A DNA stretch of 64,000 nt from a virus. The stretch is from the IMG/VR virus record IMGVR_UViG_3300027760_000026, positions 1-64,000 of that record; one strand, written 5' to 3'. This document shows positions 25,430-56,778 of the stretch, piece after piece (the first letter of the stretch is position 1; the number at the start of each line of letters is the position of its first letter). The notes below the pieces were generated by a model that was given only the letters and a program-made list of their open reading frames with translations, searched no databases and was not told the DNA's origin. Position numbers and translations under genes: made by a program.

Positions 25430-25437
25430 TATTTATT
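25430..25437 (-). promoter_or_regulatory. Late promoter motif AATAAATA before the 22949-25402 gene
   Basis: AATAAATA on the minus strand, 28-35 bases before the TTG start. It overlaps the TAA stop of the giant fibre gene. It fits NATAAATA. Confidence 0.5.
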
Positions 25438-28400: not shown

Positions 28401-31400
28401 GCAACACCAAGTGCATCAAGGAGATCGGCAGTATTTGTTACACCTGTGCCACCTCTATTGATTGGAATTACTGAAACATCAATTTGTGGATTACCATTTG
28501 CACCAGTTCCATTTGTTACAAATAAACCCGCTTGTGCATTTGCGGTAATTGTTCGTTGGACAACACTACCATCTTGAGTTTTAGTTAAAAGACCAGCTGT
28601 GTTACTGAGATTGCTTATGGAAACACTATCGCGGCTGATTACTCTTTCCCACAATAATGGATCTGTATCAACAACAATTGGATCAAGAGTTTTTAATATC
28701 CACACGGACTCTTGATATTGAATACCATCGGAGACTGCAACCATCGTACCACCAACTGTGTTAGAGTCGATGTTCATATCAGTTGATCTGATATAATTTT
28801 GTCCCTCACCTTGGAACACATAGATACCGTTGTTTATCGGACTATCTTGACCTGTGAATAGAACACGATCATATAGTTGTAGAACAACACCATCATATAC
28901 ACTCAAATTCGATCCGTTATTTGCAACAGCAGATACAGAAGTGTTTGATGTTACAACCGATCTGACTGGTTGAAGAACTGCACCGAAAGGAACTTTGTCT
29001 GAGGTTGCAACAGCTCTTCTATCATTATCTTCAACAGTAATATAAAGTTGACCGCCATCAAACTCAAGATCACCATTTAGAGGATCAGTCTTTAGTGTAC
29101 CTGCTGTAAACTTGAATGGAGAATCTGTCGTACTACCACGCCCAGGTCTAATCGTAGTATTGTTTGCCATGGATATATCACCATTGACAGTCAATCTAGA
29201 TCCTACATTAGCTTGTCCAGCAACAAATAATGTATTCGCAGAAATTCTATTTCTAGATGCAATACCACCATAGACAATTAGTGCGCCTGTTGTAATTCCT
29301 TCAGATGTAGTATTATTTGTAATCTGAACAGGAATAAATGTCGATGCACCTTGTTCAGTGACCGATTGTAATGTGGGCGTTATGTTTGCCGTAGCGAATG
29401 CTGCATCAAGTCTTGTAGCAATATTAGTACCATCACTCAGCGTAATCGATCTCGCATTTACAGAGTTTGCTGATACGTTACCTGTGATGATAACTGATTT
29501 ACCAGTATTGGCACCTGAAGTGAAACGAACAATCTCACTGCTCTTGCCCATGCCGTTTGCGGAGATAACAACATCATTGTGATAAGATCCAATGATTGTG
29601 TTACCACCACGAGTTGTGGTATTGCCGTGTGTGAATAAGTATCCGTCATTCTTTTGAATGATATCAAACTCTTCACCAACATAGTTGTAGTTGCTACTTG
29701 CAAGGCCTAAGTCTAGATATCCATCTGTTGGTGAACCATTGTCAGCAGTAATGAACACATCAAACGATGCATTAGCGCCAGAGTTAATATTTTGCATATT
29801 AAGTCCAGCATAACCATTATAGTTTGCAGACAACTGCTGAACCATCTGTGGTTCTACAAGATATCCTACTGGAATACCAGCATACAGTGCATTGAATCCG
29901 TTAGCAGTATAACCAAAGAATTGACCAGCGTTACCAGAAACAGTAACAGATGTTACGTTGCCGATGAAGTTGACGTTACCTAAAACACTCAGATCATTTT
30001 GGATGATTACGTTGCCAGAAATTGTGCCGCCAGATAAAGATAACTTCGTATTCGCAGCATTAAACGCAGCTTGTGCCAGTACAGATCCTGAATTAGCCTG
30101 ACCTGATCCAGAGTTAGCAACAGCAAAGGCTAGATTGGCAAGATTGTTTGCAGTAACTGCCTGTGCATATGCTAAATTTGCGATTGCATTTGCAGTATTA
30201 GCCTGTGCATATGCTGCATTTGCTGTAGTTGTATCAATGTTTGCAGTGCTTACATTTGAAATTCTACCATCAGTGCCAATCGTAATGATAGGAATCTGAT
30301 TGTTTGCACCATATGTTCCTGCATTAGATAGAATTCTTGACAACGAAAGATTTATTGTCTTTGTCGTTGTATTTGAAACAATTATAATACCATTTGCTAC
30401 GTTAGCATTAATGTGTACCGTATCTGCATTCGAGGTTGCAGTAATCGCATTACCGTTTGCAACAATTCTATAGAATGCAAGTGATGCTTTCGAGTTTGCA
30501 ATTTGTCTTGCAACTCTATCAATTGCACTTGGTGGTGCGGTACTGACAAGAAGATAAACGGTCTGACTCTTGTATTGTGGAACTGAATCCGAAACTGTAA
30601 TAACGTATGGTGAATTAACAGCAGTAACTGAAGATACACCACTAATCGTACCAGTAATCGTATCAAATATTAATCCTGTTGGCAGAGTACTTGGAGAAAT
30701 TGCGTACTTGTATGTTCCAGTACCACCTGAACCAGCGACAGGTGTAACACTGGTGATATCTCCTTGATAAATGTCTACGTTTGAAACTTGCAGCACTGCC
30801 TCTAGAGGAATAGGCATAGTTTCGGCAACAGTCATAAAGAATGTTGCTTGTGCAGTCTGATTTGCACTATCAGATATATTGACAGTATATAAAGTATTCG
30901 CTGTTGTGTAATCTGATTTTCCTGTAATTTCACCAGTTGAAGTGTTTAATTTCAGAATATCAGGTAAAGCAGGAGATATACTATATGTTAATGGATCAAA
31001 ACCACCAGTAGCTACAATCGGAGTAAATTCATCAACAAGTTTATATTTAACTACAGTCTTAGTTGGAGTGTTTACAGTTGCAGACAATAATGGAGCAGAA
31101 GCTGTAAGAAAGAATGTACTACTCGTACTATTATTTAAAATGTCTGTTGCTGTGATTGTGTAAGATGTATTTGTGCTGAGTGAGGTTGTCAGACCAGTAA
31201 TTGCACCGGTTGTTGCACTTAATTTTAATCCAGTTGGCAAACTTGGACCAATAGAATATCTTAGTGGTTGATATCCACCAGTTGCAACAACTGGAATAAC
31301 TGATGTTAATGCTAGTGATGTTGTAACATTGACCGAAGGAACAACTGTATTTGCAACCAATGCTGGTGGAACTGTAACACCCATAATAAATGTATTGGTG

Positions 31401-34099
31401 TTTACTTTTCCTTCAGAGTCAGTAATAGTAATTGTGTATGTTGTATTTCCAACTATACTTGCTGAGTTACCAGTAATAAGACCACTGTTACTATTGATCT
31501 CAACATACTCTGGCAAAGTAGGCGAAACAGAATATGTGTATGGTGTAAATCCACCTTTGGCTTCTACTGGTGTAAATGGTGTTAATACCAAATATCGGTA
31601 CAACTGAGTGTTGCCGGTCGTTGTTCTGTTTGCCAATAATGGTTGATTGATCGACGTTAGATAGAATGAACTATTACTGTTTTGACTTATAGCATCAGTA
31701 GCAGTAACAACATACAAAGCGTTCGCGGATTTCTCAGACGATAGACCAGATATTACACCATTGTTTTTATCGAATATTAAACCAGTAGGTAATGTTGGTG
31801 TTATTGAGAATGTAAGTGTTCCAAATCCACCAGTTGCTGTGACTGGAGTGAACGGTGTATCATCTACTAACTTGATGACAGTCTTGACTGGAATTACAGT
31901 AGTTGTCGCCAATACAGGAGGAACTTCAACCGTCAATACAAATGATTTAGATCCAGATTTGCCAGATGAATCTGTTACTGTTATAGTATGAGTAGTTGGA
32001 CCAACAGAAAATGTTGCAGTTCCAGTAATTTTACCAGTCGTTGCAGATAGTGACAGTCCTGCTGTTAGTGCAGGAGAAACTGAGAATGTATATACTCCAG
32101 ATCCACCTGTCGCAGTGACAGGAGCAAACTCTGTTGTTGCAACGCCTCTAAATATTGATTGTGTTGGTATTGCTTGTTTTACTACTAGAGTTGGACTATC
32201 GATTGTGAGTGAGAATGTACTGTTACTAATTTGTTGTGCTTGATCACGAACGGTAACAATATAATTATTAGCATTTGCAAAAGATGCAGCAGTTCCAGAA
32301 ATCGCACCAGTGGCAGCATTGATTGCTAATCCAGATGGTAAAGTTGGAGTAGTGCTCCAAGATAATGTGCCATAACCACCAGTTGCAGTAACTGGAGAAA
32401 ATGCAGTTGCCGGTTCGCCTGCCACAACATTCTGCGAAGGAATTACTGTGGTTGTAACAAGTGGAGTTGGTGCATTAACGGTTAGATAGAATGTCTTATT
32501 AACACTGGTTGGTGTTTGATCTGTTGCCGTAATTACATATGTTGTATTCGAATGTACTGCATTGGCTGTACCATCAATCTCACCAGTTGTTGTTGAGAAA
32601 GTTAATAGTGGATGTAATGCAGGCGAAATAGAATATGTAATCGTACCTGTTCCACCCGTTGCCGTCACTGGAATGAAAGCATTTACTTCCACATTTGAAG
32701 TAATAATTTTTGATGGAATTTCTAGAGTAGAAGATAGTGCTGTTGCCGCAACAGAAAGTGAAAATGTTTTACTACTAGTTTGTGATGCTTGATCCGTGAC
32801 TGTAACAGTATATGTTGTTACAGAACTGGTTGCAGTTGGAGTTCCAGATATTGCACCATTCGTTGTAGAGAATGTCAGTCCTGTAGGCAGTGCTGGTGAA
32901 ATAGCATATGCTAGTGTTCCAAATCCACCGGATGCGGTGACTGGTGTAAACGTTGGTGCTAAAATATTCTTAGTTAATGTAGTAGTTGGAACTACTTGTG
33001 TTGTTGTTAATGCAAGTAGTGCATCAACTACAAGCGTGAAGGTAGCAGTCGCTGTTAATGGTACTGCACCCGCATCTTTAATTGTAACCGTATACAGTGT
33101 TGAAGAACTTGGTACAGTTGCAGTACCAGTAATTGCACCAAGTGAAGAGAAAGTTAATCCAGCAGGCAGTGCTGGTAAAACTGTAAATGTTAATACTCCT
33201 GTACCGCCTGTTGCGGTCACTGGAGTGAACGATGTTGTTGCAATGTTCTGTTGTAACGTCTTAGTTGGAATAACAGTCTTTGCAATCAAAGGAATGGATT
33301 CAACTGATAGTGAGAATGTTTCAGATTTAGATTGAGGAGGAGATCCAGAATCTGTAACTGTTACTGTGTATGTCGTTGCAGGCGATGCGGTAGCACTAGT
33401 ACCTGTGATTTCACCAGTAGATGTGTTGAGTGTGAATCCAGTAGGCAACGGTGGAGCGATTGCGAATGTTATTGCACCGGATCCACCAGATGCAACAACT
33501 GGAGTATATCCCGATTCGGCAACACCAACCGTTTCAGTCTTAGTTGGAACTGATTGAGTTAATGCTAAAATAGATGCAGTTGCTGTACTTAAACTAAATG
33601 AAATTGATCCAGATAAACCAGAAGAATCTGTTACTGTGACTTTATAAGAAGTTAGAGGTGTTGCTGCTGACGCTGCACCTGTGATCGACAATTTAATACT
33701 ATTATAAAGTGATCCATTAACTGTGATTGTCGAGAATACTTTATTTAAAGTTAGTCCAGCAGGCAGTGCAGGAGAAATGCTATAGTTTAATCCAACAAAT
33801 GTACCAGATGTGCTATACGAAGTTGCAATTGCGCCACCGCCATAGACTGTTCCAATATCAAAGTCAACAGTTTGTGATAAATTTAAATTCTTAGTTGTTA
33901 TTAATGCAGAAGAAACTAATGGAGGAACAGAAGTTGGAACAACTGGATTTGTTCCAGTATACTTACTCCATAATTTGATAACAGCAGGTTTTGTTAAAAC
34001 AACCGGAGCACCATTGACTACAAAGTAATCACCAATAGAATATTGAGGTAGATTCGTTGAAGGTTGTGTTGCTGGATACGGAGAATAAAAAATTGCCAT
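25433..34099 (-). CDS. Giant tail fibre protein (2888 aa)
   Basis: The largest gene of the window. Residues 1-60 form a leader (MAIFYSPYPATQPSTNLPQY). About 66-1185 hold twelve Ig-like He_PIG/cadherin-type repeats of about 90 residues, each with a VxATGGxGxLxYSISPxLPx core and a TYTVTVTD strand. About 1190-1330 is a coiled Ala/Asn segment (AAYAQANTANAIANLAYAQA). The remainder is a fibre shaft with nine GGTG/GGTA motifs (for example VANGGTGATARANAINNLLP), typical of phage tail fibres. The last 100 residues match the end of the 22949-25402 protein. It is probably a long, trimeric, distal host-range fibre. No ribosome binding site is obvious. A perfect TATAAATA lies inside the upstream gene at 34216-34223. 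Confidence 0.8.
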   Translation of the reverse strand: MAIFYSPYPATQPSTNLPQYSIGDYFVVNGAPVVLTKPAVIKLWSKYTGTNPVVPTSVPPLVSSALITTKNLNLSQTVDFDIGTVYGGGAIATSYSTSGTFVGLNYSISPALPAGLTLNKVFSTITVNGSLYNSIKLSITGAASAATPLTSYKVTVTDSSGLSGSISFSLSTATASILALTQSVPTKTETVGVAESGYTPVVASGGSGAITFAIAPPLPTGFTLNTSTGEITGTSATASPATTYTVTVTDSGSPPQSKSETFSLSVESIPLIAKTVIPTKTLQQNIATTSFTPVTATGGTGVLTFTVLPALPAGLTFSSLGAITGTATVPSSSTLYTVTIKDAGAVPLTATATFTLVVDALLALTTTQVVPTTTLTKNILAPTFTPVTASGGFGTLAYAISPALPTGLTFSTTNGAISGTPTATSSVTTYTVTVTDQASQTSSKTFSLSVAATALSSTLEIPSKIITSNVEVNAFIPVTATGGTGTITYSISPALHPLLTFSTTTGEIDGTANAVHSNTTYVITATDQTPTSVNKTFYLTVNAPTPLVTTTVIPSQNVVAGEPATAFSPVTATGGYGTLSWSTTPTLPSGLAINAATGAISGTAASFANANNYIVTVRDQAQQISNSTFSLTIDSPTLVVKQAIPTQSIFRGVATTEFAPVTATGGSGVYTFSVSPALTAGLSLSATTGKITGTATFSVGPTTHTITVTDSSGKSGSKSFVLTVEVPPVLATTTVIPVKTVIKLVDDTPFTPVTATGGFGTLTFSITPTLPTGLIFDKNNGVISGLSSEKSANALYVVTATDAISQNSNSSFYLTSINQPLLANRTTTGNTQLYRYLVLTPFTPVEAKGGFTPYTYSVSPTLPEYVEINSNSGLITGNSASIVGNTTYTITITDSEGKVNTNTFIMGVTVPPALVANTVVPSVNVTTSLALTSVIPVVATGGYQPLRYSIGPSLPTGLKLSATTGAITGLTTSLSTNTSYTITATDILNNSTSSTFFLTASAPLLSATVNTPTKTVVKYKLVDEFTPIVATGGFDPLTYSISPALPDILKLNTSTGEITGKSDYTTANTLYTVNISDSANQTAQATFFMTVAETMPIPLEAVLQVSNVDIYQGDITSVTPVAGSGGTGTYKYAISPSTLPTGLIFDTITGTISGVSSVTAVNSPYVITVSDSVPQYKSQTVYLLVSTAPPSAIDRVARQIANSKASLAFYRIVANGNAITATSNADTVHINANVANGIIIVSNTTTKTINLSLSRILSNAGTYGANNQIPIITIGTDGRISNVSTANIDTTTANAAYAQANTANAIANLAYAQAVTANNLANLAFAVANSGSGQANSGSVLAQAAFNAANTKLSLSGGTISGNVIIQNDLSVLGNVNFIGNVTSVTVSGNAGQFFGYTANGFNALYAGIPVGYLVEPQMVQQLSANYNGYAGLNMQNINSGANASFDVFITADNGSPTDGYLDLGLASSNYNYVGEEFDIIQKNDGYLFTHGNTTTRGGNTIIGSYHNDVVISANGMGKSSEIVRFTSGANTGKSVIITGNVSANSVNARSITLSDGTNIATRLDAAFATANITPTLQSVTEQGASTFIPVQITNNTTSEGITTGALIVYGGIASRNRISANTLFVAGQANVGSRLTVNGDISMANNTTIRPGRGSTTDSPFKFTAGTLKTDPLNGDLEFDGGQLYITVEDNDRRAVATSDKVPFGAVLQPVRSVVTSNTSVSAVANNGSNLSVYDGVVLQLYDRVLFTGQDSPINNGIYVFQGEGQNYIRSTDMNIDSNTVGGTMVAVSDGIQYQESVWILKTLDPIVVDTDPLLWERVISRDSVSISNLSNTAGLLTKTQDGSVVQRTITANAQAGLFVTNGTGANGNPQIDVSVIPINRGGTGVTNTADLLDALGVAGAGVNTNITELAGLTKGIRVAYGGTGAYDGRVGSGGAYYGRLGAKKNLLLKPDQYGVTYSGTYGDQLSWPSQNSATVYTQGFGTDYVLTLKMPDAPIGATYAGTSDFIDFKSPYPTMVNKNGQKLTVTETYNQDLNYWTRQAQWKAVIDVGYDYANNRYDTANVGMALMMDQYGQIQWNTLAGGGTVIGVRGEATDSDITIINYNTAGNSVGYITSNGRINIALNTITHSKLPVVQLTKGGTGNPNMGSGYLSSNGTIVTANIHIPGNTISGNLLLSNMNVQHGGTGANNRIGAMINLLPSYDGNNGKALLVKSDSSDVEWVSVSGVGTVTSVGISVPADNSIVIGNSPITAAGNITMKLGEVPVANGGTGNGALSFGYVYVNGNTAGARMTSNIHIPGSVISGNISGAAGGLIPGVVVPLTNGGTGAGGSLDNDINRRNAKSNLLKLDSESPTHRQVLTFWNPPASATLDKITWRSIYTTPNTHSSNAVFANTRGINYTNGSSNNYLLAPFLRYRPANPYDPGSDISLEWEYPYPSPNGISNTVLTHVGNNELAWTATSQGVVRDVVSTSFTVTTANVGQTVFINTPFNGLAVANGGTGATARANAINNLLPSQANNNGYVLFTDGGNAYWQSVPGTGTVTFVGLEFDPGEPFSVSGSPITAAGTFNLALSTVPISKGGTAATTIGAARTNLGAAKSGVNSDITRLTGLVTPLAVSQGGTGTNNLTGYIKGNGTGAFTAVASIPAGDLGIGTLGMQNADAVNIIGGAISNVTLKHVTVGNNMLGMSTVSYSIIRDSVLTSNVKVTLDEATITGNTILSGNVTIQSALSVSGDITTTSNLRANFIQSDNDITANGNILVLGNSKVNGTSNVNSITANNGIYLNPISWMSSNTFTTSGLSQVTVDQFSAANFRSAKYFIQMTSGTRYHATELTMIHDDTNAYISQFGTVKSSVVLGTFDASVVAGALTLKFTPVFSATTLKMHRTTIRK
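30545..33905 (-). repeat. Twelve He_PIG/Ig-like coding repeats
   Basis: About 270-bp units encode twelve diverged Ig-like modules with recurring TPVTATGG, SPALPTGL, GAISGT and TYTVTVTD motifs. Boundaries are approximate. Divergence between units suggests an old array, unlike the FN3 array at 54577-55941. Confidence 0.8.
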
Positions 34100-35637: not shown

Positions 35638-37508
35638 TTTAATTTCTCTATTTCTTCTTTTAAAGATGTTACCTGAGAATTTAATTCTTTGATGGATTCA
35701 ATCAATAATCCTACCATGTTTCCATATGCGACAGTATACATGCCACTGTGAGTTGTAGACACAGCTTCTGGTAGAACATTAATCAATTCTTGTGCAATCA
35801 CACCAGTCTGAGAACCAACATCAATATCAGTTCTTTCAAAAGTATATCCAGATATCTTATTCACTTTTTCTAGAGCATTTTCAATAACTTTGATATTTTT
35901 TTTCAGTCTCGCGTCAGAGTATGCAGTTACGTTGCCGCCGCAAGTTAAGTCTGTTCCATTATAAGTTAGTCCAGAACCAGTTGCTAGTGCTGATCCAGAA
36001 GATGCATACACAACACCACCAGAAGTAAATGAACTTAGTCCAGTACCACCTTGGTTTGTCGGTACTGTTCCAGAAGATGTTAACTTCTTGTTTCCATCCG
36101 TGAATACTGGTTTGGTTGCAGTGAGTGTTGCAGCAGTAATATCACCGGTGATTACTGCCTCAGATCCAACATATAGTTTTTTAATAATGCCAACGCCACC
36201 ACCAACAACTAATGCACCAGTGCTAGTTGAAGATGAATCTGTTGCAGAGAAAATTGTTGCATTAGCACCAACGTTTATAAAACTGTCAGTAGAGATGCTT
36301 CCGTTTGAATATATTCTCTTAGCAACGCCAAGACCGCCTTTTACTACTACTGCACCAACAATTGGACTTGCTGCATCTGTAGTATTATTTGCATAAATAA
36401 CACCGTTTGATGAGATGCTTCCAGTAACATTCAATCTCAGTGCAACTCCAAGACCGCCCTTAGTCTGTATAGCACCAGTAGAATCACTGAAAGATTCTGC
36501 TGCATAATTTACATAGAGTGGACCGGAAGAACTTATAGATCCATCTGAATGTATACTAGTACCTGCAATTAAATTAGCAACACCAAGACCACCAGCAACT
36601 ACTGCTGCACCATTATTGTATGAAGTTGATTCTGTTGTGTCATTTACCTTGAATATGCCGCCAACATTCAACCTTTTAGTAATACCAACTCCACCAGCAG
36701 TTACTATTGCACCCGTTGATACAGATGTTGATTCATTTGTGTTAGCAAAATATGCTGAACCAGTTACTGCTAAATTTGCACCAAGTGTTGTGTTGCCAGA
36801 AACAGTTAATCTTTGACCAATATCTACGTTTGCAGAAACTATCATCGAGTTTGAGATGTTAACTTTACCGCCAAGTTGAATCTCAGCAGTTGATTGTACC
36901 TTCATAGTGCCACCAATATAGATATCACCACCGATACCCATACCACCAGTGACAACAAATGCACCAGAACTAATTGATGTCGAATCTCTACTGTTAGGAA
37001 TTACAACTGTACCAGATGCATCAAGATAAATGTCATCACTTGTGTCGTTAGTAACTTGAATGTGTAACTTTCTTGCATCACCAGCAGTCGCATAGTACTT
37101 AATGTTTGCAGAATCGCCAGTCGTTCCGCCCAGAAATGAAATACCATTTGATCCAGATCCAAAAGTTGGCATAATCATACCGCCAACTAGAAGATTACCA
37201 AGAATGTTTGCAGTACCATTAGCTAAGAAACTAGTTCCTGTATTCGAAAGATAAAGTTGTCTTTGTACAGTTAAATCATTCTGAACTGTTGCAGATGATC
37301 CAGAACCGGCAACAGTTAAGACACCCTGTACGATTGCATCATTCTTGACCAGTAGACCCGTGCCAGAACTATTAATTGTGAACGTGCCAGAATCTTTGAT
37401 GTAGTTGTTCGCACCAATATCATTGGTTTCTGCCAGAACTTTGTTCGTCGTGACAACCCAATCACCAAAAGTATTGGCATATCCTAATGGTACTACTTGA
37501 TTAGACAT
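35625..37508 (-). CDS. Tail fibre with S74 autoproteolytic chaperone domain
   Basis: 627 residues. The N-terminus MSNQVVPLGYANTFGDWVVT and NNYIKDSGTFTINSSGTGLL are typical of fibre attachment. The shaft has about six repeats of the STSTGALVVGGGVGIxKxLxVxG type. The last 97 residues form a peptidase S74 intramolecular chaperone: SDARLKKNI with S531 and K536 five residues apart, the Ser-Lys spacing of the catalytic dyad in the K1F endosialidase domain, then GVIAQELINVLPEAV and a C-terminal coiled coil. In that family the chaperone trimerises the fibre and cuts itself off before the Ser-Asp bond. The start overlaps the upstream small gene by eight bases, with AAGGA five bases before the ATG. Confidence 0.88.
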   Translation of the reverse strand: MSNQVVPLGYANTFGDWVVTTNKVLAETNDIGANNYIKDSGTFTINSSGTGLLVKNDAIVQGVLTVAGSGSSATVQNDLTVQRQLYLSNTGTSFLANGTANILGNLLVGGMIMPTFGSGSNGISFLGGTTGDSANIKYYATAGDARKLHIQVTNDTSDDIYLDASGTVVIPNSRDSTSISSGAFVVTGGMGIGGDIYIGGTMKVQSTAEIQLGGKVNISNSMIVSANVDIGQRLTVSGNTTLGANLAVTGSAYFANTNESTSVSTGAIVTAGGVGITKRLNVGGIFKVNDTTESTSYNNGAAVVAGGLGVANLIAGTSIHSDGSISSSGPLYVNYAAESFSDSTGAIQTKGGLGVALRLNVTGSISSNGVIYANNTTDAASPIVGAVVVKGGLGVAKRIYSNGSISTDSFINVGANATIFSATDSSSTSTGALVVGGGVGIIKKLYVGSEAVITGDITAATLTATKPVFTDGNKKLTSSGTVPTNQGGTGLSSFTSGGVVYASSGSALATGSGLTYNGTDLTCGGNVTAYSDARLKKNIKVIENALEKVNKISGYTFERTDIDVGSQTGVIAQELINVLPEAVSTTHSGMYTVAYGNMVGLLIESIKELNSQVTSLKEEIEKLKNPS

Positions 37509-37734
37509 TTTTATCCTTGATTAATTCTGCTAGTAATTGTTTAATCTCTGACATATCACTCTTGATCGTTGAAAGTTCATCATTTAATTTATTTATTTCT
37601 TGTTTCTGAGTCTTCAACAATCTGACCTTCAAGTAGTATTCATTTCTTTCCGTATAGTCAGTGCTTGAGAGTTGCATTGTTCTAATGTCTCTGACAAAAT
37701 TAGCACCCTCAATCTTGACTAAGTTTTCAGACAT
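37501..37734 (-). CDS. Small coiled-coil protein upstream of the S74 fibre
   Basis: 77 residues from the ATG at 37734, preferred over an in-frame start at 37761 because GGTGA lies just upstream and the preceding gene's TGA ends only one base before. N-terminus MSENLVKIEGANFVRDIRTM, C-terminal heptad pattern EINKLNDELSTIKSDMSEIK and LLAELI. I recall similar short proteins at this position in T4-like cyanophages, without a known function. The C-terminus overlaps the start of the fibre gene. It may help assembly or attachment of that fibre. Confidence 0.65.
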   Translation of the reverse strand: MSENLVKIEGANFVRDIRTMQLSSTDYTERNEYYLKVRLLKTQKQEINKLNDELSTIKSDMSEIKQLLAELIKDKNV

Positions 37735-37735
37735 A

Positions 37736-39394
37736 TCAGATATCACCCGTAGGTAATGCAATAACTCTCAAATCTTTGACAAATGGTGAGAAAGTCGAAT
37801 CTGCCGATGCCATTACAATTTTAATGGCATATTTGTAGAAGTCATTAAATATTAATCCAGTCTTTGGATTAGTATATGATACATAGTTTTGTGAAACACC
37901 AGCAGTACCTGGTGCCAATTCAAATTCAATCAAATCGTCTCTTGTTGCAGAATATCTAATAGATTTACTAATCGAAGTCATTTGTTGCCAATTCGCTTCT
38001 TCAATAATCAGAGTATCATCTCTCGAAATAATCTTATAGTAAACAAAGATCTTTGTATTCGTTGGGCGATATGCAGTAAGGAATACACGTAGATCACCAG
38101 AATCATTACCGGCAGCGAGAGTGACTGGATATGTTTGATATCTAACTAGTCCATTACCACCAGAGACTGATGTTTCACCATATACTACTACGTTTGCAGG
38201 AGTAGTGTTTGCGGCAGAGATCGAGATTGTTGGATTCTTAGAGTATCCAGAACCAGGAGTAGTGACATACACACTAGTTAATACACCTGATGTAATATAA
38301 CCCTCAACGATTGCCTGAACACCATCTGCTTCGTTTGGCGCCGACACAGTGATATTGCCCGATATCTTTCCGTTAGCGCCGCTTAAATATCCTCCACCTC
38401 CACCAGTAATAGTAATTATATTATTTGATATAGGCATATTATTAATAATGTTCTTGATCACAAAGATATTAGTGCCATCATCAGAAATAACCGGTGAAAC
38501 TCTTTCATCTTCAGTTGTTAATTTTGCATTTAAATAAAAAGAATTTCTTGTATCGTTAAGAGTAAGAACTCGTTTGCCGTTGTTATCATTCAAGTAGATG
38601 TTATTGACAGCTCGAGTTGCATAATCACCAGGATTTACAATCTTAGAAGCTTCAAGTAAGAATGTAGTATTCAACATTGTTTGCGATGTGTATACAATAT
38701 TTGTTTTCTCTGGTTTATGGTGTGATGTTGAAAGATTGTATTGATCGTATACAACATTGGCTGAATACTTTTTGTTCGCACTCGATTCAACGATGTTAGT
38801 TTTTTGTAATCCATCAGAAACAATAAACTTTAATGTTGGTGAAACAGAGGTATCAAAACTACATCTGTTGATTACAAACATTAAGTCTCTTGTTTGATCC
38901 GCATCATAGTTAATACCATTCTGAGATTCAAACAATGTTCCAATGTAAGGACTTTTTGCAATCTTAGATAGTGTTGTTGGTGTAGGATCTGTCGATAAAT
39001 CTTTGACAGAAGATGCCAATGGTGTATCATTCTGTTGGGCGCACCACAAATTATAACCAGATGAATTGGTTCTTAGAACGAATGCATACAATTCACCAGA
39101 TTTCACATACACTGGTGCTGGGAATTTAAATTCCGTGTATGTCGTTGAGTCGATATACTGTGGTGAAGTTGAAACCTTAATGTCAACTGGATATAAAACA
39201 ACCTCAGAAAAGTCCAACATCTTTGCAGTTGGATATGCACTTTGAGTTGTTACGATAGCAAGATGCACTGGAATCTGAACAGTTGGTTTCGTTTTGAAGA
39301 ACAATCGAATAGAACTTAGAAATACACCGTACGGATAAGATGCATCATCAATAATAAATGATTGTGCTAACGGATCTAAGATAGTTATTGCCAT
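37736..39394 (-). CDS. Baseplate-type virion protein, C-terminal part of a larger cyanophage protein
   Basis: 552 residues starting MAITILDPLAQSFIIDDASY, then YGVFLSSIRLFFKTK. As I recall, cyanophage structural proteins contain the sequence DPVAQTFxID...YPNGVFLSSVxFFFKTK internally, so this is probably the C-terminal portion of a protein that is continuous elsewhere. About residues 365-405 hold a GSGYSKNPTISI module shared with other baseplate proteins here. The ATG (39394) follows the TAA of the Hint-containing gene with no gap and in the same frame. A weak GGA lies about nine bases before the start. Probable location: peripheral baseplate. Confidence 0.7.
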   Translation of the reverse strand: MAITILDPLAQSFIIDDASYPYGVFLSSIRLFFKTKPTVQIPVHLAIVTTQSAYPTAKMLDFSEVVLYPVDIKVSTSPQYIDSTTYTEFKFPAPVYVKSGELYAFVLRTNSSGYNLWCAQQNDTPLASSVKDLSTDPTPTTLSKIAKSPYIGTLFESQNGINYDADQTRDLMFVINRCSFDTSVSPTLKFIVSDGLQKTNIVESSANKKYSANVVYDQYNLSTSHHKPEKTNIVYTSQTMLNTTFLLEASKIVNPGDYATRAVNNIYLNDNNGKRVLTLNDTRNSFYLNAKLTTEDERVSPVISDDGTNIFVIKNIINNMPISNNIITITGGGGGYLSGANGKISGNITVSAPNEADGVQAIVEGYITSGVLTSVYVTTPGSGYSKNPTISISAANTTPANVVVYGETSVSGGNGLVRYQTYPVTLAAGNDSGDLRVFLTAYRPTNTKIFVYYKIISRDDTLIIEEANWQQMTSISKSIRYSATRDDLIEFELAPGTAGVSQNYVSYTNPKTGLIFNDFYKYAIKIVMASADSTFSPFVKDLRVIALPTGDI

Positions 39395-40915
39395 TTAAAA
39401 TAGTTCCATATTCGTTCGTTCTGTTGACTTAACATTGTGTGAAATCAATCCTTCTGTGATATATGTATGCGCTTGATCAATCTCAAATTTAATGACTTCA
39501 CCGTCACCAATGTCTGTAATAGAAACAATTTCTTTACTACTCAGATCATAAATTACATCATAGTTCATTCCCATTACAGATTCACCAACGGAAATATCAC
39601 ACACTTTTTTCCAAGAATCATCAGACATTAAAAATTTATGCGTAGAAGAGACTTTAAGTTTTTTACCATTAGCAAATTCAATTTCAACTTTAGGTTGAAT
39701 CATTCTTTCTGCTTCTAGAATCTTGAATGTTCCAGGTTCTCTTGAGTGTTCGTGAATCGTTATAACTTTATCGCCAACATTTAAATCGCCGGCACGAACC
39801 CAATGTGAATCTTCACAGAAAATTAGTGTGTCTGGATCTGGACAACCACCACCATATGAAACATCGTTAATAGGAACTAATGTACCATTAGTGATAGCAT
39901 CGAGTGCACCATCTGATTGACGATATATTTCAGTTGCTGACGTGGTTGTTCCTCGACTTGTTGTTGTCGTAGAAGCACCAGTACCAGCAGAGAATTGTGA
40001 ATCAGCAGCCTTATCAAATGTACCAGAAGCAAAATAAGTTGCCTGTGCATATGTTGTTTCAGATCCTAATTGATTCACATAATTACCGGTGGTTGGATCA
40101 GTGCCAACATATCTGTTATCAAGTCTAAAGATTCTGTTACCTGTTGGGAAAATACCACCACGAAGATAGAATACACCGGAACATTTACCGATTTCATTAC
40201 TTGATGGTTTTCCAATAGAATATGTACTCTGACCAGCAATAAAAGATAGTCCACCTGCACTTAATGTTGCAACTTTTGTTGTTCCATTATATGCAGTAAT
40301 TGTTCTGACAGGATAATCCGCAACAACTTCATCTGTGTATGTGGTGTCGGATGAAGTATTTGTTGAAACAGTAATGATGTTAAACGTATTACCATTGTAG
40401 TAATTATTTACAGAAGATGCTCTGCCATTCAGTGTAACGTATTGTGTAGATGTATTTGATACAGCAACTTTACCAGATAGATGACCGAAAGCAGAAATAG
40501 TACCAGAATCGGTAGAGTTTACATATACACCATATGAATCATAGTATGCATTATAAAGAGTACCACCCACAACTAAATCGGTAGGAATATTATCAAAGTC
40601 ATCAATGATGTAAAGTCTCATATCAACTATAGTACCAGAACCTTTCTTATATACGTCAATAATTGTTCCGGTCTTGATAAAACTAGAATTTGTTGGTTTG
40701 TATCCAACGACATCGCCGACTTTAAAATTACCAGATGTGTTTGTAACATCGATGGTATTTGGTCTTCTGATTAATCGTGTGACGCGATACTCATCAAACC
40801 ATGCATCAAGTTCTGTGTCAGAAAGTAAATTCGACACATTAAAAGTGATTTGTTTCTCACGGCAGTATGGAACTACTGGTGGTATTGTTGCAGTTGTCGT
40901 TATAGTTGTTGCCAT
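39395..40915 (-). CDS. Baseplate-type virion protein with intein-like Hint domain
   Basis: 506 residues. Residues 1-357 are a beta-rich structural part (REKQITFNVSNLLSDTELDA near the start; YLRGGIFPTGNRIFRLDNRY near 255) that matches the middle region I recall of large cyanophage structural proteins. Residues 358-494 form a Hint domain: Cys358 after SYGGG, a VSSTHKF motif with Ser and His three apart, and the terminal HTYITEGLISHN. No homing endonuclease is inserted. Only 12 residues (VKSTERTNMELF) follow before the TAA. Residue +1 is Val, not Cys/Ser/Thr, as in A-type bacterial intein-like domains, so self-cleavage is more likely than splicing. Confidence 0.8.
   Translation of the reverse strand: MATTITTTATIPPVVPYCREKQITFNVSNLLSDTELDAWFDEYRVTRLIRRPNTIDVTNTSGNFKVGDVVGYKPTNSSFIKTGTIIDVYKKGSGTIVDMRLYIIDDFDNIPTDLVVGGTLYNAYYDSYGVYVNSTDSGTISAFGHLSGKVAVSNTSTQYVTLNGRASSVNNYYNGNTFNIITVSTNTSSDTTYTDEVVADYPVRTITAYNGTTKVATLSAGGLSFIAGQSTYSIGKPSSNEIGKCSGVFYLRGGIFPTGNRIFRLDNRYVGTDPTTGNYVNQLGSETTYAQATYFASGTFDKAADSQFSAGTGASTTTTSRGTTTSATEIYRQSDGALDAITNGTLVPINDVSYGGGCPDPDTLIFCEDSHWVRAGDLNVGDKVITIHEHSREPGTFKILEAERMIQPKVEIEFANGKKLKVSSTHKFLMSDDSWKKVCDISVGESVMGMNYDVIYDLSSKEIVSITDIGDGEVIKFEIDQAHTYITEGLISHNVKSTERTNMELF
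39434..39844 (-). other. Hint (intein-like) domain coding region
   Basis: 137 codons, Cys358 to Asn494. Block A is CPDPDTLIFCEDSHWVRAGD plus LNVGDKV, block B is KLKVSSTHKFLM, and the C-terminal blocks are VIKFEIDQAHTYITEGLISHN. This is the size of a mini-intein without an endonuclease. Established family behaviour: N-S acyl shift at Cys1 and Asn cyclisation at the end. Confidence 0.85.
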
Positions 40916-40925
40916 TTTTTATCTC

Positions 40926-43900
40926 TTAAAAATCAATTACTTGTTCAAATTGGACATACATAACATCACCGTAGTATGCAATTCTAAGTGCCATACATCC
41001 TATATCAAGTGTGTTTGTTGCGTCATAATACAATGTGTGATTGCCAGCTGTAACATATATAGAGGTCGCGTATACATTAGAAGGTGCATACACCGGTGTG
41101 TTGAAACCGTTAGTTGTTGTTACACCACCAGCATAAGCCATTCCAGATGAACCAAAAACATTAGTGCCATCTAGTGTTACGGTTCCAGTATCATCAACTG
41201 AACCTTCAAATAGATAGTATCCAGATTTAGTAAATGTGACGGTATATGTTCTGTTGAATGTTTTATTTGTTCTACCTAAATCTGCATATCCCCAAACACC
41301 AAATTCATTTCTAAATTGACCAGCATCTCCCTGTTGTGAAGTGTATACCGCAGCACTTCCAGTTGGTGGATTATTGCTCGTGAATATTGCATTAATTGAT
41401 GTGCCAGGAATGGGACCAACCTTGATATACTCAGGTGGAGGTATATCTTTAGTCACAGGACCTTGACTTGATGGAGGAGTATATACATCTATCCAGTTAT
41501 CAATAGCTGGAGAAATTGTCATCAGACCTTCGACGTTTCTGGTAGTGAAAGAGTTGATGTTAACTTCGCGTGATGCTAATTTCTGAACAACCAATTCTTT
41601 CTGTGTGTATGGTAGAGTGAAAACGTTTGTTGTTCCAACTTTGTGTGGTTGATAGAACAACTCAGAAACTGCCTGTTCAACTGAAATAGGTTTAGCAACA
41701 ACAGGATCATAATCTTTATTGTAAAGATCGAAAGATTCTGTTGTAGTTGCAGGAGATAAAGTTCCGTTTGTCGTATCAATTTGTGCAAAGTAACTATTAT
41801 TATAAGTATCTGCGACAGAGAAAGTTGTGAAGTTGTCAACAAGAATACCATTCTTGAATCGATTCAAACCAAAGTTATCTTGGATTTGTAAAGAAGTTGC
41901 AGACTGTTCAAGAAGATTTAATGATGTGTAATACTCTAGGTTCTCAATTCTTTCATTCAGTCCAGAGATATCTTTCATCAACCATGTCCTATGTGTGATA
42001 GGAATGATCGATAGATTTGGAATAACACCAGGATACTCGCCAGGAATGTATGCTGTGTATGGATCATACACCAGTTTTGCAAGTATAAGACTATTCGATT
42101 CTTCTGGTGGATATGCAGGTGTCAACGATGGTACACCTTGAACCAATTTGATAACAGAATCTTTAGTGAGAACTAATAGATCTTTTCTACCCAAATAGTA
42201 GTAGTAATCTGAAGTAAACGAAGACTCATCTTCTGGTAACAATGAACCATAGAAATTACTTGTCGTAGGAGTTACAGAATATTTAAATAAGTTTATATCA
42301 GATTGAACATTCCTAACTTGTGGTCTGAAATCAATACAATCTCTTAATTGATATGTTGTGCCGCCAGAAGATGTGAATGTTCCAATCTCTGCATAATTTT
42401 CATTTGAATATGAATTAATATTAAAGTATCCGTCACCGCCAGAATGTTCATAGTAATCAAATAGAATCCACAATCTAGTTGGAACTGGATAACCAGGTTT
42501 CAATGAAATCGATGCGTGACCATAGTATGTGTCACGTTGACCATTATCAAACGAGAAGTTATTAGTGACATCTTTATTAGTATCAGTCAACATCGATAGT
42601 GTCGGTGTTGCTGCACCAGGATCAACAATCTTGACGATTTTCTTAACGTCAGACACATAAAGAGATTGTGGAAGTCCAGATGTGACGATTGCAGAACTAC
42701 TGTTAACGTAGATTTGACCCTTAGATAAATCTATTAATGTGTTAGTGTTAACAATCCCAGAAGCACCAACGATACCTAATCCATAGGTATTTGCAGTAGC
42801 TAAAGTCTTAGTCTTTCTGACATAACTTGTGTTGTCAGCACCAATAATATTCATGCGTGAGTAAATCGATGCAGTAAATGGTAACAAATCTGGTGCAGAG
42901 AATGTTGCTGTAGTCTTCTGTGAATTGACAACAACAGTTCTATTAAGTCCTGCGATTGCATTTCCAACAAAAGGAATAATCTGACCATTAGTCAAGTTTG
43001 CATTCGACTGTTTATCAGTACATACGACAATAAAGTTTTGTTTAATCGAATCGATGCTTTCAGCAGAACCAGTTCTAATAAAGTTCAATACAGATTGTGC
43101 AGCAACATCAATCGTAAGTGCTTTGTAAACACCTGTAGTAGTTGTTGTGAATGCTTGACCTCGATAAACTTGTGTAGAAACATATGATGCATCTGATACA
43201 GAAGATACATATGGATTACCAAGTTGAAAAACTAATTCTGCATCGCCCGCGTCTGCAACAAATGTATCACCAGTCGAAAGAGAACCAACCTTACTTCTGT
43301 TGTCGATCTGTGCAGAACCATAAACAGTAAATGGTGCAGATCCACCAACTTTTGCAAAACTTTCAATGTCTTTTACTGCACTCTTGATAGAGAATTTTGA
43401 AGCGTTTGTTGGCAATACAGTAAAGACTGGTGAAACTTTCAATATTTTAATTGTTGAGTTTGCAAAATATGTTTCAATAGTTCTAGTTTGCCCAGCACCA
43501 GGACCGCTATCGATAGATAGAATCATGCCACCATATAAGTTTGCCACACGGGTGCTAAATGTTGCGAGTGTATTATTATTAACAGAAACAGTGTTCGCAT
43601 TAGCAAACTCAACATTTCCAGATAAAGATTTAACCGTTAAATCTGATATGTGTGCTTTGTACACATAAGATGTTGTATCAGAATCAGTTCCGCTGGTATT
43701 ATAACGAAGATAACGTAATCGACCAGTCGCAGCAAGAGTTGAATTATATGTCATCGTATTCGTAGTTGTAACCATTGCTGTATTACAAATATGAAAATCG
43801 ATTGCTTGTGATGTTGTCGTATCAATGTAGTCGCCGTTGGCGCCTGCAAGTGTATTCACATAGAAGTAATTACCATATGCAGGAGTAACAATATTGTTAT

Positions 43901-45002
43901 TAATGTTTGCAGTTGTTCTTGCTCTATCGGCATCTAGTTTTAGAGTGCTTTGATTTTCTGTTCTGTAACCATGAACATACGCAAGACCAGGGCCAACATT
44001 AAGAATATACTTGTCAGTTCCTGAAGTGAAAGTATTCTTCGAAGGAATTATACTAAAATTCTTGACAACAAAGTCACCATTAGTTTCAAATGTTCTCTTT
44101 GCAAAGTAGTCATCAATCTGTGAATATGACGTAGAATTAACTTGACGAATGATTTCACCAGACTCAACTCGTGCCAATTCAATAAAGTTCGAATCAGCAC
44201 CTGCACCATCAGTTGACTTCTTAGTTGTCAGAGTTAAATTGATTGTATATCTGTCTGCGCCTGGTCCTTGAAAGTTCGATGAACCTAATGCTGGATCCAA
44301 CAATGTTGAATCTGTAACATAGTCTGTGACATACTCAACAATATCTAGACCAATTCTAGCGTTTGGAGTATTATCATACTTGTTTAGAATGATTGTCTGT
44401 GGTAACACATCGACAAAGTTACCAATGGAATACTTGTTGTATGTACCATCATCATTTTCTTTAGACGATGTTGAGTAACCATTGACAACATAAAATATGC
44501 CATTTGCAACTGACGCAATCGAAGATTTACCATTTGCATTTGATGTAACAGTTGTTGCAACAGTACCATTCTCTATTGTGTCTAGTATTAAAACATTAGC
44601 ACTGTTTGTAAACTTAGTCGAAGAAGAATATGTTAGAATTAGAGTAGGAGGATCGCCATCAGCTACACCCTCTTCAGTTGCAACAACATAAGCTATAACT
44701 TTACCTGTAGCGTCCGTGATATATTGATTTTTAAAATCAGATGCAACGATTTCTGAACCAGCATACTCATAGTTTAGTTTTAGATATTCGACATTAGTGT
44801 CAATCGTTAACTTACCGCCTTTGATTGGCGTGTTCTGTGTGAAGAAGTGATCCGCAAAATTAGAGATTTGATTCTGAAGAATCGTCTGCGCCTGAGTTAA
44901 CTCTCTTGCTTGAACTGCACGACCTGGTCTAAAAAGAATCTTGTGATAATTATTACTTGGATCAAAATCGTCATAATAGGGATCCACATTAAAATTTAAC
45001 AT
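40926..45002 (-). CDS. Large baseplate-type virion protein, DUF4815-like N-terminus
   Basis: 1358 residues. The N-terminus VDPYYDDFDPSNNYHKILFR, then PGRAVQARELTQAQTILQNQ and ISNFADHFF, is the hallmark I recognise from large T4-like cyanophage structural proteins (DUF4815 type). A helical segment at about 990-1040 (LNERIENLEYYTSLNLLEQS) resembles a coiled coil. The C-terminal 150 residues (FTKSGYYLFEGSVDDTGTVT, then TAGNHTLYYDATN) look like a PA14/GLEYA-type lectin fold; that is tentative. Only ten bases separate it from the Hint gene. Together with the next two ORFs it probably corresponds to one large protein of relatives. Probable role: peripheral baseplate or fibre-anchoring protein, perhaps a gp10 equivalent by position. 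Confidence 0.7.
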   Translation of the reverse strand: MLNFNVDPYYDDFDPSNNYHKILFRPGRAVQARELTQAQTILQNQISNFADHFFTQNTPIKGGKLTIDTNVEYLKLNYEYAGSEIVASDFKNQYITDATGKVIAYVVATEEGVADGDPPTLILTYSSSTKFTNSANVLILDTIENGTVATTVTSNANGKSSIASVANGIFYVVNGYSTSSKENDDGTYNKYSIGNFVDVLPQTIILNKYDNTPNARIGLDIVEYVTDYVTDSTLLDPALGSSNFQGPGADRYTINLTLTTKKSTDGAGADSNFIELARVESGEIIRQVNSTSYSQIDDYFAKRTFETNGDFVVKNFSIIPSKNTFTSGTDKYILNVGPGLAYVHGYRTENQSTLKLDADRARTTANINNNIVTPAYGNYFYVNTLAGANGDYIDTTTSQAIDFHICNTAMVTTTNTMTYNSTLAATGRLRYLRYNTSGTDSDTTSYVYKAHISDLTVKSLSGNVEFANANTVSVNNNTLATFSTRVANLYGGMILSIDSGPGAGQTRTIETYFANSTIKILKVSPVFTVLPTNASKFSIKSAVKDIESFAKVGGSAPFTVYGSAQIDNRSKVGSLSTGDTFVADAGDAELVFQLGNPYVSSVSDASYVSTQVYRGQAFTTTTTGVYKALTIDVAAQSVLNFIRTGSAESIDSIKQNFIVVCTDKQSNANLTNGQIIPFVGNAIAGLNRTVVVNSQKTTATFSAPDLLPFTASIYSRMNIIGADNTSYVRKTKTLATANTYGLGIVGASGIVNTNTLIDLSKGQIYVNSSSAIVTSGLPQSLYVSDVKKIVKIVDPGAATPTLSMLTDTNKDVTNNFSFDNGQRDTYYGHASISLKPGYPVPTRLWILFDYYEHSGGDGYFNINSYSNENYAEIGTFTSSGGTTYQLRDCIDFRPQVRNVQSDINLFKYSVTPTTSNFYGSLLPEDESSFTSDYYYYLGRKDLLVLTKDSVIKLVQGVPSLTPAYPPEESNSLILAKLVYDPYTAYIPGEYPGVIPNLSIIPITHRTWLMKDISGLNERIENLEYYTSLNLLEQSATSLQIQDNFGLNRFKNGILVDNFTTFSVADTYNNSYFAQIDTTNGTLSPATTTESFDLYNKDYDPVVAKPISVEQAVSELFYQPHKVGTTNVFTLPYTQKELVVQKLASREVNINSFTTRNVEGLMTISPAIDNWIDVYTPPSSQGPVTKDIPPPEYIKVGPIPGTSINAIFTSNNPPTGSAAVYTSQQGDAGQFRNEFGVWGYADLGRTNKTFNRTYTVTFTKSGYYLFEGSVDDTGTVTLDGTNVFGSSGMAYAGGVTTTNGFNTPVYAPSNVYATSIYVTAGNHTLYYDATNTLDIGCMALRIAYYGDVMYVQFEQVIDF

Positions 45003-46399: not shown

Positions 46400-48286
46400 T
46401 TAAGAATATGATACTGAACAATATGTATTTGCAAGATCGCCAGCAAATGAATAATATTTAATTCTCGCTGTTGTTAGACTACCCAGTGTGAATGTTGTTG
46501 CACCGACTGTAGAGTTAACAGCAGAACAACCGTGTGTGATTGTTTTATTTGAACCACCACCGGTAGCATAATTAGTGATGAATAAAGTGATATCAGAACC
46601 TGTTTTAAAATTAGACAACGTAACTGCCATATTCGCAACAACGTTACAACGAACCCATGTGTCTGTTCCAAAATCTAATGTAATCGCTGTTTGATTTCCT
46701 GCGTAACTTCTTGTATTGAAAATTAATCCATTTGGAACATATATGGTAGAATTTGCATCGTCAATGATCGCTGTATTACTTGCTTGAATTAGATTGTTGT
46801 TTGCAAAGAGAATAGCGCCGTTTGGTTTACCATACGCTTGCCGGGCCGCAATATCAATTTGAATTTTGCCATTTGCAGTTCCGTTTGATAGAATCTTTGC
46901 CACTTGATATACGGCATTTGCTCCAGTCGGTGCTACGTTTGTTGCTTGACCAGGAGTAGTAGACAAGAAGATTATCTGTCCATTGTTGCCAAAAGAAGAT
47001 GCGTCCATGTCAGACACGATTCCCTTTGTATACACAAATCCATATGCACCATTTGCAATACCAACTTTAACAAATCCTTCGACTGTTGCGTTTGCAGCAG
47101 ATCCTGCATCAGCAAGAACAACATAAGGAACAGCATTCTGAGTTACTACACCAGCTAATCGTACCCATGAGTTTGAAGCAATTGCAGAACCAGTACCGTT
47201 ATATATACGTTCAAATAAAACTTTCGAGATGGCTGGTCTATCACCAGTTACGTCAGTGTCTTGTACTAAAGAGATTGTATTTGCAGAGTACCAAACTTGA
47301 CCAGACGTTTGTGTTGGTGAAATTAATTGTGGAAACCACTGAATAGAATTCGAAGTAGACGTTGAAGAAATAATATTAGAGAAGAACACATTACCATACA
47401 AAGTATTACATGTTAATGTACCAGTAATATTTATATCTTTCGTAAACTGAGCAGTGTTTGCTCTAAACGTATCAACGAAAATACCTTGATTGGGAGAGTT
47501 CGCAACCAGATTACCAGATAGACGAAGTTCTTGTAGTTGAATGCTCGCAGTGTTTTGAACTGCCGTGTTTGATAGATTGAATGCAGCGTTTGCATGTGTG
47601 AATGTATTATTTGCTTTATCGAATGCTGCCTGAGAAGATAACGCTGATCCACTGGCAGCAGTGGTTTGTGTAGTACCATCGGAGAACACAAAAGAACCAG
47701 TGGTCCTAACATTACTAGCCGTTAAGTTACCAGTCACACTCAATGGTTTCAAAAAATCAAAAGCAGAGTTGCTGACTCTACCAACAATGTTGTCTGAACT
47801 TAATCCACCAACCATGAAAATAATATTTGCACGAGTGGATGCTGTACCGATTATTAGATTACCTTGTGCGCTTGTCGTGGATGGACCGTAGACGTAGACA
47901 TAACCATCATATGCTTTAAATGCGCTATAGTTTAATGGATCAGAGAATGTTTTGCCACTGATACCAAAGTCAATGTAACTATTTGAGTTGTCACTATCAC
48001 TCGTTGATGCAACAAAGTCAGAAGATCCATTTGAATTAAAATTCTGAAGATTAATTTGTAAGAATGTGTTACTGCTTGATGCAAACTGTCCGATTACGTT
48101 TTGATAAAGAATTGAATTATTGCCTACGTTCAGAACTTCATTAGAGAATAAACCTCTGGCTAAAACATTAGCAGTAATTCTTCCAGTGATATTCGTGGGT
48201 AAATCCACACCCACAAATATTGTATTTGATGTATTACTTTGGATTGCTGCAATTACTGGCAGTTCAGAGATTTTTACTAATGACAT
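46400..48286 (-). CDS. Virion structural protein with NAAF-type stalk
   Basis: 628 residues. N-terminus MSLVKISELPVIAAIQSNTS; a fibre-type region (YIDFGISGKTFSDPLNYSAF; GYVYVYGPSTTSAQGNLIIG) resembles a segment of the giant fibre (SFDVFITADNGSPTDGYLDL), suggesting a shared domain. About 190-245 is a TGSFVFSDGTTQTTA segment with AAFDKANNTFTHANAAFNLS repeats. The C-terminal 100 residues (AITLDFGTDTWVRCNVVANM) form a beta domain. AGGA lies 6 bases before the ATG. It lies among baseplate genes, so it is probably a short fibre or baseplate-attached protein. Confidence 0.65.
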   Translation of the reverse strand: MSLVKISELPVIAAIQSNTSNTIFVGVDLPTNITGRITANVLARGLFSNEVLNVGNNSILYQNVIGQFASSSNTFLQINLQNFNSNGSSDFVASTSDSDNSNSYIDFGISGKTFSDPLNYSAFKAYDGYVYVYGPSTTSAQGNLIIGTASTRANIIFMVGGLSSDNIVGRVSNSAFDFLKPLSVTGNLTASNVRTTGSFVFSDGTTQTTAASGSALSSQAAFDKANNTFTHANAAFNLSNTAVQNTASIQLQELRLSGNLVANSPNQGIFVDTFRANTAQFTKDINITGTLTCNTLYGNVFFSNIISSTSTSNSIQWFPQLISPTQTSGQVWYSANTISLVQDTDVTGDRPAISKVLFERIYNGTGSAIASNSWVRLAGVVTQNAVPYVVLADAGSAANATVEGFVKVGIANGAYGFVYTKGIVSDMDASSFGNNGQIIFLSTTPGQATNVAPTGANAVYQVAKILSNGTANGKIQIDIAARQAYGKPNGAILFANNNLIQASNTAIIDDANSTIYVPNGLIFNTRSYAGNQTAITLDFGTDTWVRCNVVANMAVTLSNFKTGSDITLFITNYATGGGSNKTITHGCSAVNSTVGATTFTLGSLTTARIKYYSFAGDLANTYCSVSYS

Positions 48287-56700: not shown

Positions 56701-56778
56701 AATCGTTGAGTTTGAGTACGATATTGTACTATTACTCAAATCAGTAGGAAAAGATAATCTACCAAAAATACTTGCCAT
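53776..56778 (-). CDS. Virion protein with five FN3 modules and a glycine-rich adhesin tip
   Basis: 1000 residues. Residues 1-268 are a unique domain (MASIFGRLSFPTDLSNSTIS; LSTAIAIGRTLSYVCFQSDG; AGQKFSGMGETEKYLVNTLI) that looks like a core virion protein, unlike any adhesin in the island. Residues 280-734 are five FN3 modules of about 91 residues. About 740-965 is a glycine-rich domain (VEYLVVAGGAGGGG to GVVIIAYPTAF) and the end is YRVYRFYGGSGPIQW. It lies between gp25 and the gp5 beta-helix gene, among baseplate core genes. AAGGA lies 7 bases before the ATG. Most likely a baseplate-located protein on which receptor-binding modules have been added (inference). Confidence 0.75.
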   Translation of the reverse strand: MASIFGRLSFPTDLSNSTISYSNSTIKHMNAIPKLLSDWQYSDIASSNTGAYYQNPVANSANLILSISTQVFANSSGTIGITSVANASNNLVNTANNFIAHTNRISGMVEPNADTGSLPHLSTAIAIGRTLSYVCFQSDGVTNNAPMIGNFSSLYTANNLADYYTVIRTYPNVIANTIYYEPDVADPQIMLKKSNLSAGLVTTITTNLNTINTYMSGKEASDVNFFNQSKSIVAEVNAGQKFSGMGETEKYLVNTLIGTDKLKQRIAGTTTGGGDITTTVPGIPTIGTATRTGSQTIQVAFTAPTNTGGSAITGYTVTSSPGNITATGSTSPITVSGLTNGTAYTFTVTATNSVGTSSASFASNSATPYTLPSAPTIGAATRYASQAVNVEFTAPNNGGNTITIYTVTSSPGNIIAAGTTSPITVTGLTNGTAYTFTITATNDAGTSSASSASNSATPYTVPAAPTIGTATRSASQSVQVTFSYPDGGGSAITGYTVTSSPGSITGTGSTSPITVTGLTNGTAYTFTVTATNAAGTSSASSASNSATPYTVPGAPTIGTATRSGSGAVQVTFTAPASTGGNTITGYTATSSPGNITGTGSTSPITVSGLTNGTAYTFTMTATNAAGTSSASSASNSATPYTVPGTPTIGTATSTGQTTATVAFTAPASDGGSTITSYTAVSSPGGVTGTLSQAGSGTISVSGLTAGTSYTFTVYATNAAGNSSSSSASNSITTSQSAPSSVEYLVVAGGAGGGGASGGRGGGGGAGGLLTSTVSVSAGTPYSITVGGGGGGSNGVNGRGSPGNPSTFFNITSTGGGGGAGNDGGGTGPGLPGGSGGGGHYDGSGGPGIGGQGYPGGPGITNPNFGSGGGGGAGGAGTGGNTTFGGPGGPGLAPGIAGPGIFYAGGGGGQIDPGTQGSGGSGIGGSGGGQNPGASYTGSGGGGNGTGGTAGAGGPGVVIIAYPTAFTALSSISPGLSYDTPGGRPGYRVYRFYGGSGPIQW
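54577..55941 (-). repeat. Five tandem FN3 coding repeats (about 273 bp each)
   Basis: Five units start with PTIGTATRxxS and end with TNAAGTSSASSASNSATPYT or a close variant. Several neighbouring units are very similar at DNA level, including synonymous positions, which points to recent tandem duplication. Confidence 0.85.

Follow-up and report, generated by a model that had tools for sequence, protein, structure and literature searches.

A maintained C-terminal intein-like Hint domain in one piece of a divided VrlC baseplate protein in metagenomic phages

On alignment with their homologues, the open reading frames (ORFs) at 40926-45002, 39395-40915 and 37736-39394 prove to be successive segments of a single VrlC/DUF4815 baseplate protein, and the middle one ends in an intein-like Hint domain which, judged by its substitution pattern, is maintained and no relic. 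They lie in a 64,000-nt stretch of viral DNA (the window), which comprises positions 1-64,000 of IMG/VR record IMGVR_UViG_3300027760_000026; the region studied was 37,736-40,915 together with its flanks. Taken as a whole, the locus is probably best explained by a divided gene in which a Hint took the place of a different end-domain (the CC domain, described below), with a Hint that mostly cleaves itself and a third piece that joins the baseplate non-covalently.

Results

Layout of the locus

The features are listed here with their coordinates in the window.

40926..45002, minus strand: piece 1 (1358 aa), the baseplate protein's N-terminal region, of DUF4815/VrlC type (PF16075, E 2e-53; phrog_358 positions 5-1115 of 2056, E 5e-217)
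40929..41507, minus strand: extra C-terminal stretch of piece 1, about 190 aa, at the first division (from alignment, tblastn and locus L209)
39395..40915, minus strand: piece 2 (ORF2, 506 aa), VrlC middle part with a C-terminal Hint
40022..40870, minus strand: conserved middle domain of piece 2 (PYCREKQ ... ATYFASG), by alignment continuous with its neighbours in relatives
39845..40021, minus strand: variable linker of piece 2 ending SYGGG (residues 291-357, dN/dS 0.63, weak constraint)
39434..39844, minus strand: Hint domain, residues 358-494 (Cys358 codon 39842-39844; block-B His426 39638-39640; His493-Asn494 39434-39439)
39398..39433, minus strand: 12-residue tail after the Hint, VKSTERTNMELF, starting at V495
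39395..39397, minus strand: stop codon TAA of piece 2, abutting the next start codon
37736..39394, minus strand: piece 3 (ORF3, 552 aa), C-terminal DPLAQSF part of VrlC as a gene of its own (phrog_358 positions 1421 onward, E 6.6e-77)
37501..37743, minus strand: flanking gene downstream of piece 3 for a conserved virion protein of 80 aa (phrog_473)

The TAA of piece 2 (39397-39395) and the ATG of piece 3 (39394-39392) are in one frame with zero bases between them, and the N-terminus of piece 3 reads (M)AITILDPLAQSF. Such abutment is ordinary here, as 17 of the 42 gene junctions in the window are at most 4 nt apart. A baseplate wedge gene (phrog_438) is located just upstream of the VrlC pieces.

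Three other ORFs of the window were also recorded. The ORF of 2888 aa at 25433-34099 has about a dozen Ig-like repeats (PVTATGG...LP.GL...G.ITG) in its N-terminal half and no PHROG match. Within the baseplate cluster, the 1000-aa protein at 53776-56778 has several domains of the fibronectin type III kind and ends in a Gly-rich domain, and the 628-aa ORF at 46400-48286 had no PHROG match.

A VrlC protein divided twice

VrlC has been described as integral to baseplates of the two-layered type (PMC7029224). The pieces were assigned to it by their conserved N-terminal, middle and DPxAQTF regions and by the gp8-VrlC gene order. In Ochrobactrum phage OC, Pelagibacter phage Mosig, Prochlorococcus phage P-HM2, Synechococcus phage S-SCSM2R and Sinorhizobium phages phiM9 and phiM12, VrlC is a single ORF. 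Alignment with continuous homologues placed the 506-aa ORF between pieces 1 and 3, with both divisions falling at linkers. The division between the 1358-aa and 506-aa ORFs had been missed by the initial annotation of this DNA. This division, the first along the protein, coincides with the stretch of about 190 aa at the end of piece 1, which is common to the window and loci L008 and L209 and absent from fused homologues. The stretch had no Pfam match, and a PA14-like identity was likewise unsupported by Pfam.

Identity and fold of the Hint domain

The initial annotation had described a complete mini-Hint domain (Cys358 to SHN494) followed by 12 residues beginning with Val at +1, TAA and an in-frame ATG, and every one of these details was confirmed. 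When the Hint was scanned alone, it matched the Pfam family Intein_splicing (PF14890) with an E value of 8.3e-11 and 42.4 bits (gathering cutoff 35.8), while the score was just under the cutoff when the whole of ORF2 was scanned. An AlphaFold2 model of the domain, for which 21 natural sequences were aligned as input, had pLDDT above 90 over most of its length. The best PDB matches of the predicted fold were inteins, a bacterial intein-like (BIL) domain and hedgehog Hint domains, with TM scores of 0.79/0.87 for the NpuDnaB intein, 0.73/0.82 for the Clostridium thermocellum BIL (PDB 2lwy) and 0.74/0.80 for a hedgehog Hint.

The predicted fold, the N-terminal nucleophile Cys358 and the block-B His426, both conserved in the family, place the domain in the Hint superfamily. 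It departs from class 1 inteins in two ways: the +1 position holds Val (window) or Gln (L008) instead of Cys, Ser or Thr, and removal of the domain would not restore a continuous host protein in one ORF, because the ORF stops 12 residues past the Hint. An N-terminal Cys and a His-Asn end with no +1 nucleophile (SHN-V in the window, SHN-Q in L008) are the motifs of A-type BILs; together with the block-B His, they bear out the earlier description of the element as A-type BIL-like. By sequence profile, NpuDnaB (E 3e-9) scored better than 2lwy (E 2e-5), and solved inteins in general outscored the solved BIL.

Hint relatives in other phage proteins

A search with a DNA pattern for the C-terminal motif of the Hint recovered about 30 full-length relatives in other phage proteins, mostly at 37-47% identity, plus weaker ones. 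Most are preceded by Gly-rich linkers. Among the hosts are phrog_29329 proteins (L125, L161) and a tape-measure-like protein (L135), as well as central tail fibre J proteins (L099, L146), whose Hints have lower identity. In L125, the Hint lies beyond the end point of the homologues PAU gp264 and LR756500. Each record examined held a single Hint copy. A profile search of genome contigs with a two-row Hint alignment found no Hint, and the same search with a 21-row alignment found four copies in bacteria, which are distant (25-30% identity). A Hint family of this sort in virion proteins was not found described in the literature searched, which took in a minority of the subscription papers.

Among 26 aligned copies, Cys1 is present in 25 (the 26th being an alignment edge), and the block-B His and the final His-Asn in all 26. 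The +1 residue is mostly Lys; Val, Gln, Ile, Asp, Met and Ala also occur, and Ser in a single copy, whereas intein-like copies inside long ORFs (L151, L156, L176), which were found with the same pattern, have Ser or Thr at this position. The missing +1 nucleophile is therefore a family trait, and an A-type-BIL-like one. It had been proposed that splicing was lost at this locus, which is unsupported, since the family as a whole has no +1 Cys or Thr and A-type BILs are able to splice without it (PMC4031507).

In several relatives (L153, L133, L105, L178, L165, L103 and others), 60-364 residues follow the Hint, which in most of these proteins lies behind a Gly-rich linker, and the proteins would be split in two if the Hint cleaves.

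Selection on the Hint

Between the window and L008, dN/dS was 0.06 for the Hint, 0.13 for piece 1, 0.14 for piece 3 and 0.21 for the middle domain, and it reached 0.63 in the linker, the ratios being rough as dS is 1.0-1.6 in the domains and thus near saturation. No other stretch of the locus is as constrained as the Hint, and raw identity gave the same ranking, with 86% for the Hint, 69-77% for the other domains and 52% for the linker. The tail has 4 of its 12 residues in common between the two loci.

Related phages with a divided VrlC

At the DPxAQTF junction, 79 loci were classed, a count that takes in the window and L008. A continuous, Hint-free VrlC of about 2,000 aa was found in 67 of them, a separate DPxAQTF gene without a Hint in 10 (L018-L027), and a separate DPxAQTF gene with a Hint in two, the window and L008. 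The earlier statement that the FPTGxRxFRLDNR and DPxAQTF regions lie in one polypeptide in T4-like cyanophages was thus correct, and aligning the three ORFs with their homologues, the check that had been suggested for it, found most relatives continuous and free of the Hint. The two Hint-bearing VrlC loci are independent and come from metagenomic phages; L007 and L011 represent a contig that is almost identical, with a single difference over 17.5 kb, and are not independent.

Five of the divided loci without a Hint (L018-L020, L026, L027) were read over their whole length. They have the N-terminal and middle parts joined in one piece of about 1,680 aa, which ends at the same linker in a domain of about 120 aa starting CCV(V/I)xTA, the CC domain (for example, L018:7198-7569). 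It is predicted to be all-helical and is unrelated to the Hint. The remaining five of the ten loci also have it, and the linker before it is Gly-rich in most. Between this piece and the DPxAQTF gene lies an ORF of about 140 aa. This ORF is conserved and Cys-rich across L018-L027 (MGISVADYFAQKEACSDCLEHGDEEHCVTTLLSR...; for example, L018:7575-7991 and L026:7571-8020).

In IMG/VR, the CC domain was found only at the end of the VrlC baseplate piece, and all readable loci show this arrangement as far as the contig extends. The 157-kb record of L026 contains a single full-length CC domain, which is that of VrlC, and lacks a Hint. Neither the CC domain nor the 140-aa ORF was found in the records of the window, L007 and L008, which are incomplete records, and neither matched an NCBIfam or Pfam family. 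An identity of the CC domain as a CFI-box C-terminal domain was not confirmed. It had no tblastn match in phage records; Foldseek against viral models returned weak matches (best E 0.04), the first few with high Foldseek probability.

In phylogenies, the two Hint-bearing loci grouped with L018 and L019 inside the divided clade, with support of 99 in the ORF3 tree and 100 in the DUF4815 tree, the divided clade as a whole having 83 and 97, respectively. Holding the CC-domain loci as a clade without the Hint pair was 88 log units worse and was rejected (p-AU 1.4e-7).

Discussion

Published A-type BILs have a His-Asn end and no +1 nucleophile, and their products are mostly cleaved (PMC4031507, PMC7664689). 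For the Hint described here, self-cleavage near Gly357 is the most likely activity, and mainly cleavage would be expected because there is no +1 nucleophile. Cys358 would form a thioester at Gly357 and Asn494 of the His493-Asn494 pair would cyclise, giving a middle piece that ends at or near SYGGG357, the free Hint and a 12-mer. BIL-type joining of the middle piece to the 12-residue tail could occur occasionally. Piece 3 would be translated from its own start and assemble non-covalently.

The Hint could instead stay uncleaved, with silent catalysis, and serve the baseplate piece as a folded cap or binding domain at its C-terminus; this is possible, but clearly less probable than self-cleavage. 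In the sister phages, the same slot is held by an unrelated helical domain without known self-cleaving activity, which means that any compact domain may do. Against a cap, Cys1, the block-B His, the penultimate His and the final Asn are conserved while identity in the family drops to 37%, and this suggests selection on the chemistry; the linker in front of the Hint, moreover, is variable.

As for the order of events, the sister phages are divided without a Hint and the Hint pair is nested among them, therefore the division came first, and the Hint replaced the CC domain later. The most economical history is a division with a CC domain followed by replacement of this cassette by a Hint, the direction of change resting on parsimony and on a root among fused homologues. 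On the sequence evidence, the DPxAQTF part became a separate gene in an ancestor whose upstream piece ended after the linker in the helical CC domain, with the 140-aa ORF adjoining. In the lineage of the window and L008, the CC cassette then gave way to a Hint from the family that elsewhere follows Gly-rich linkers of other phage proteins.

In the initial annotation, an intact VrlC gene was taken to have been entered at this junction by an intein or BIL, which decayed and split the gene, turning one protein into two. We consider this very unlikely. Most relatives are indeed unsplit and Hint-free at the junction, and TERTN in the tail resembles EERTN before DPVAQTF in the unsplit L012. However, that match is of four residues, is not seen in L008 (VIDTN) and was judged to be chance, which easily produces it. 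Ten sister loci are split without a Hint and with a different end-domain, the Hint pair is nested in them, and the strong purifying selection on the Hint contradicts decay.

Slightly more doubtful still is a ligation in trans, in which the free N-terminus of piece 3 attacks the Gly357 thioester and rebuilds the continuous polypeptide after translation. Joining by A-type BILs has been proposed to proceed through attack of the thioester by a free amino group of the C-terminal fragment (PMC4031507), and the two pieces were adjacent in the ancestral protein and probably are so in the baseplate. Against this, the sister phages have the same division without a Hint, hence no ligation is needed, the 12-residue C-terminal tail would compete in cis, and no trans example of such geometry was found. 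Chemically, the thioester could link pieces 2 and 3 again, though such re-joining has no support.

Programmed read-through of the stop into a fused piece 2-Hint-piece 3, which had also been suggested as a way to restore an extended polypeptide, can practically be dismissed: a stop and start in one frame with no base between are seen in the window, but zero-gap junctions are commonplace in this genome, the tail shows poor conservation, two in-frame stops and an 18-nt spacer precede the start in L008, so that read-through is no conserved feature, and the GGA that lies about 10 nt before the ATG of ORF3 in both genomes (overlapping tail codons in the window) fits independent initiation of ORF3.

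One baseplate protein here offers a clean evolutionary series from a whole gene to a divided gene with a helical end-domain and then to a divided gene with a Hint end-domain. On this evidence, a conserved structural gene can keep an intein-like domain as its end-domain, the domain not being a parasite that broke the gene. If the cleavage is true, self-processing would join the known ways of phage baseplate maturation, and the wider Hint family in phage proteins, some of them tail proteins, would be testable as a class. It is a long shot that this family is a phage-specific, autoprocessing, mobile C-terminal cassette of virion proteins which reacts at Gly-rich linkers during assembly, and whose thioester could couple the middle piece with the separately made DPLAQSF piece, or else with some other virion protein.

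Compared with known systems, the VrlC proteins of pelagiphages, cyanophages and rhizobiophages (Mosig, P-HM2, OC, phiM12) have the same three regions in the same order as the window (phrog_358), but as one Hint-free ORF of about 1,740-2,500 aa and not as three ORFs. The Hint relatives in L161, L125, L135, L130, L153, L103, L178 and others are like that of the window in their Gly-rich front flank and SHN end and match it over the full domain, most at 37-47% identity, while their hosts are unrelated to VrlC (phrog_29329, tape-measure-like and others) and their tails range from 9 to 364 residues. The class 1 mini-inteins NpuDnaB (4o1r) and gp41-1 (6qaz) are among the best matches by fold and profile, and blocks A, B, F and G are recognisable; however, the window Hint has no +1 Cys, Ser or Thr, sits at a variable linker and is flanked C-terminally by a 12-residue tail and not by an extein needed for a conserved active site. 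With the C. thermocellum BIL (2lwy), it shares the Hint fold, N-terminal Cys, block-B His, His-Asn end and lack of a +1 Cys or Thr, although identity in the structural alignment is just 18%, and the window Hint is a predicted fold located C-terminally on a phage baseplate piece.
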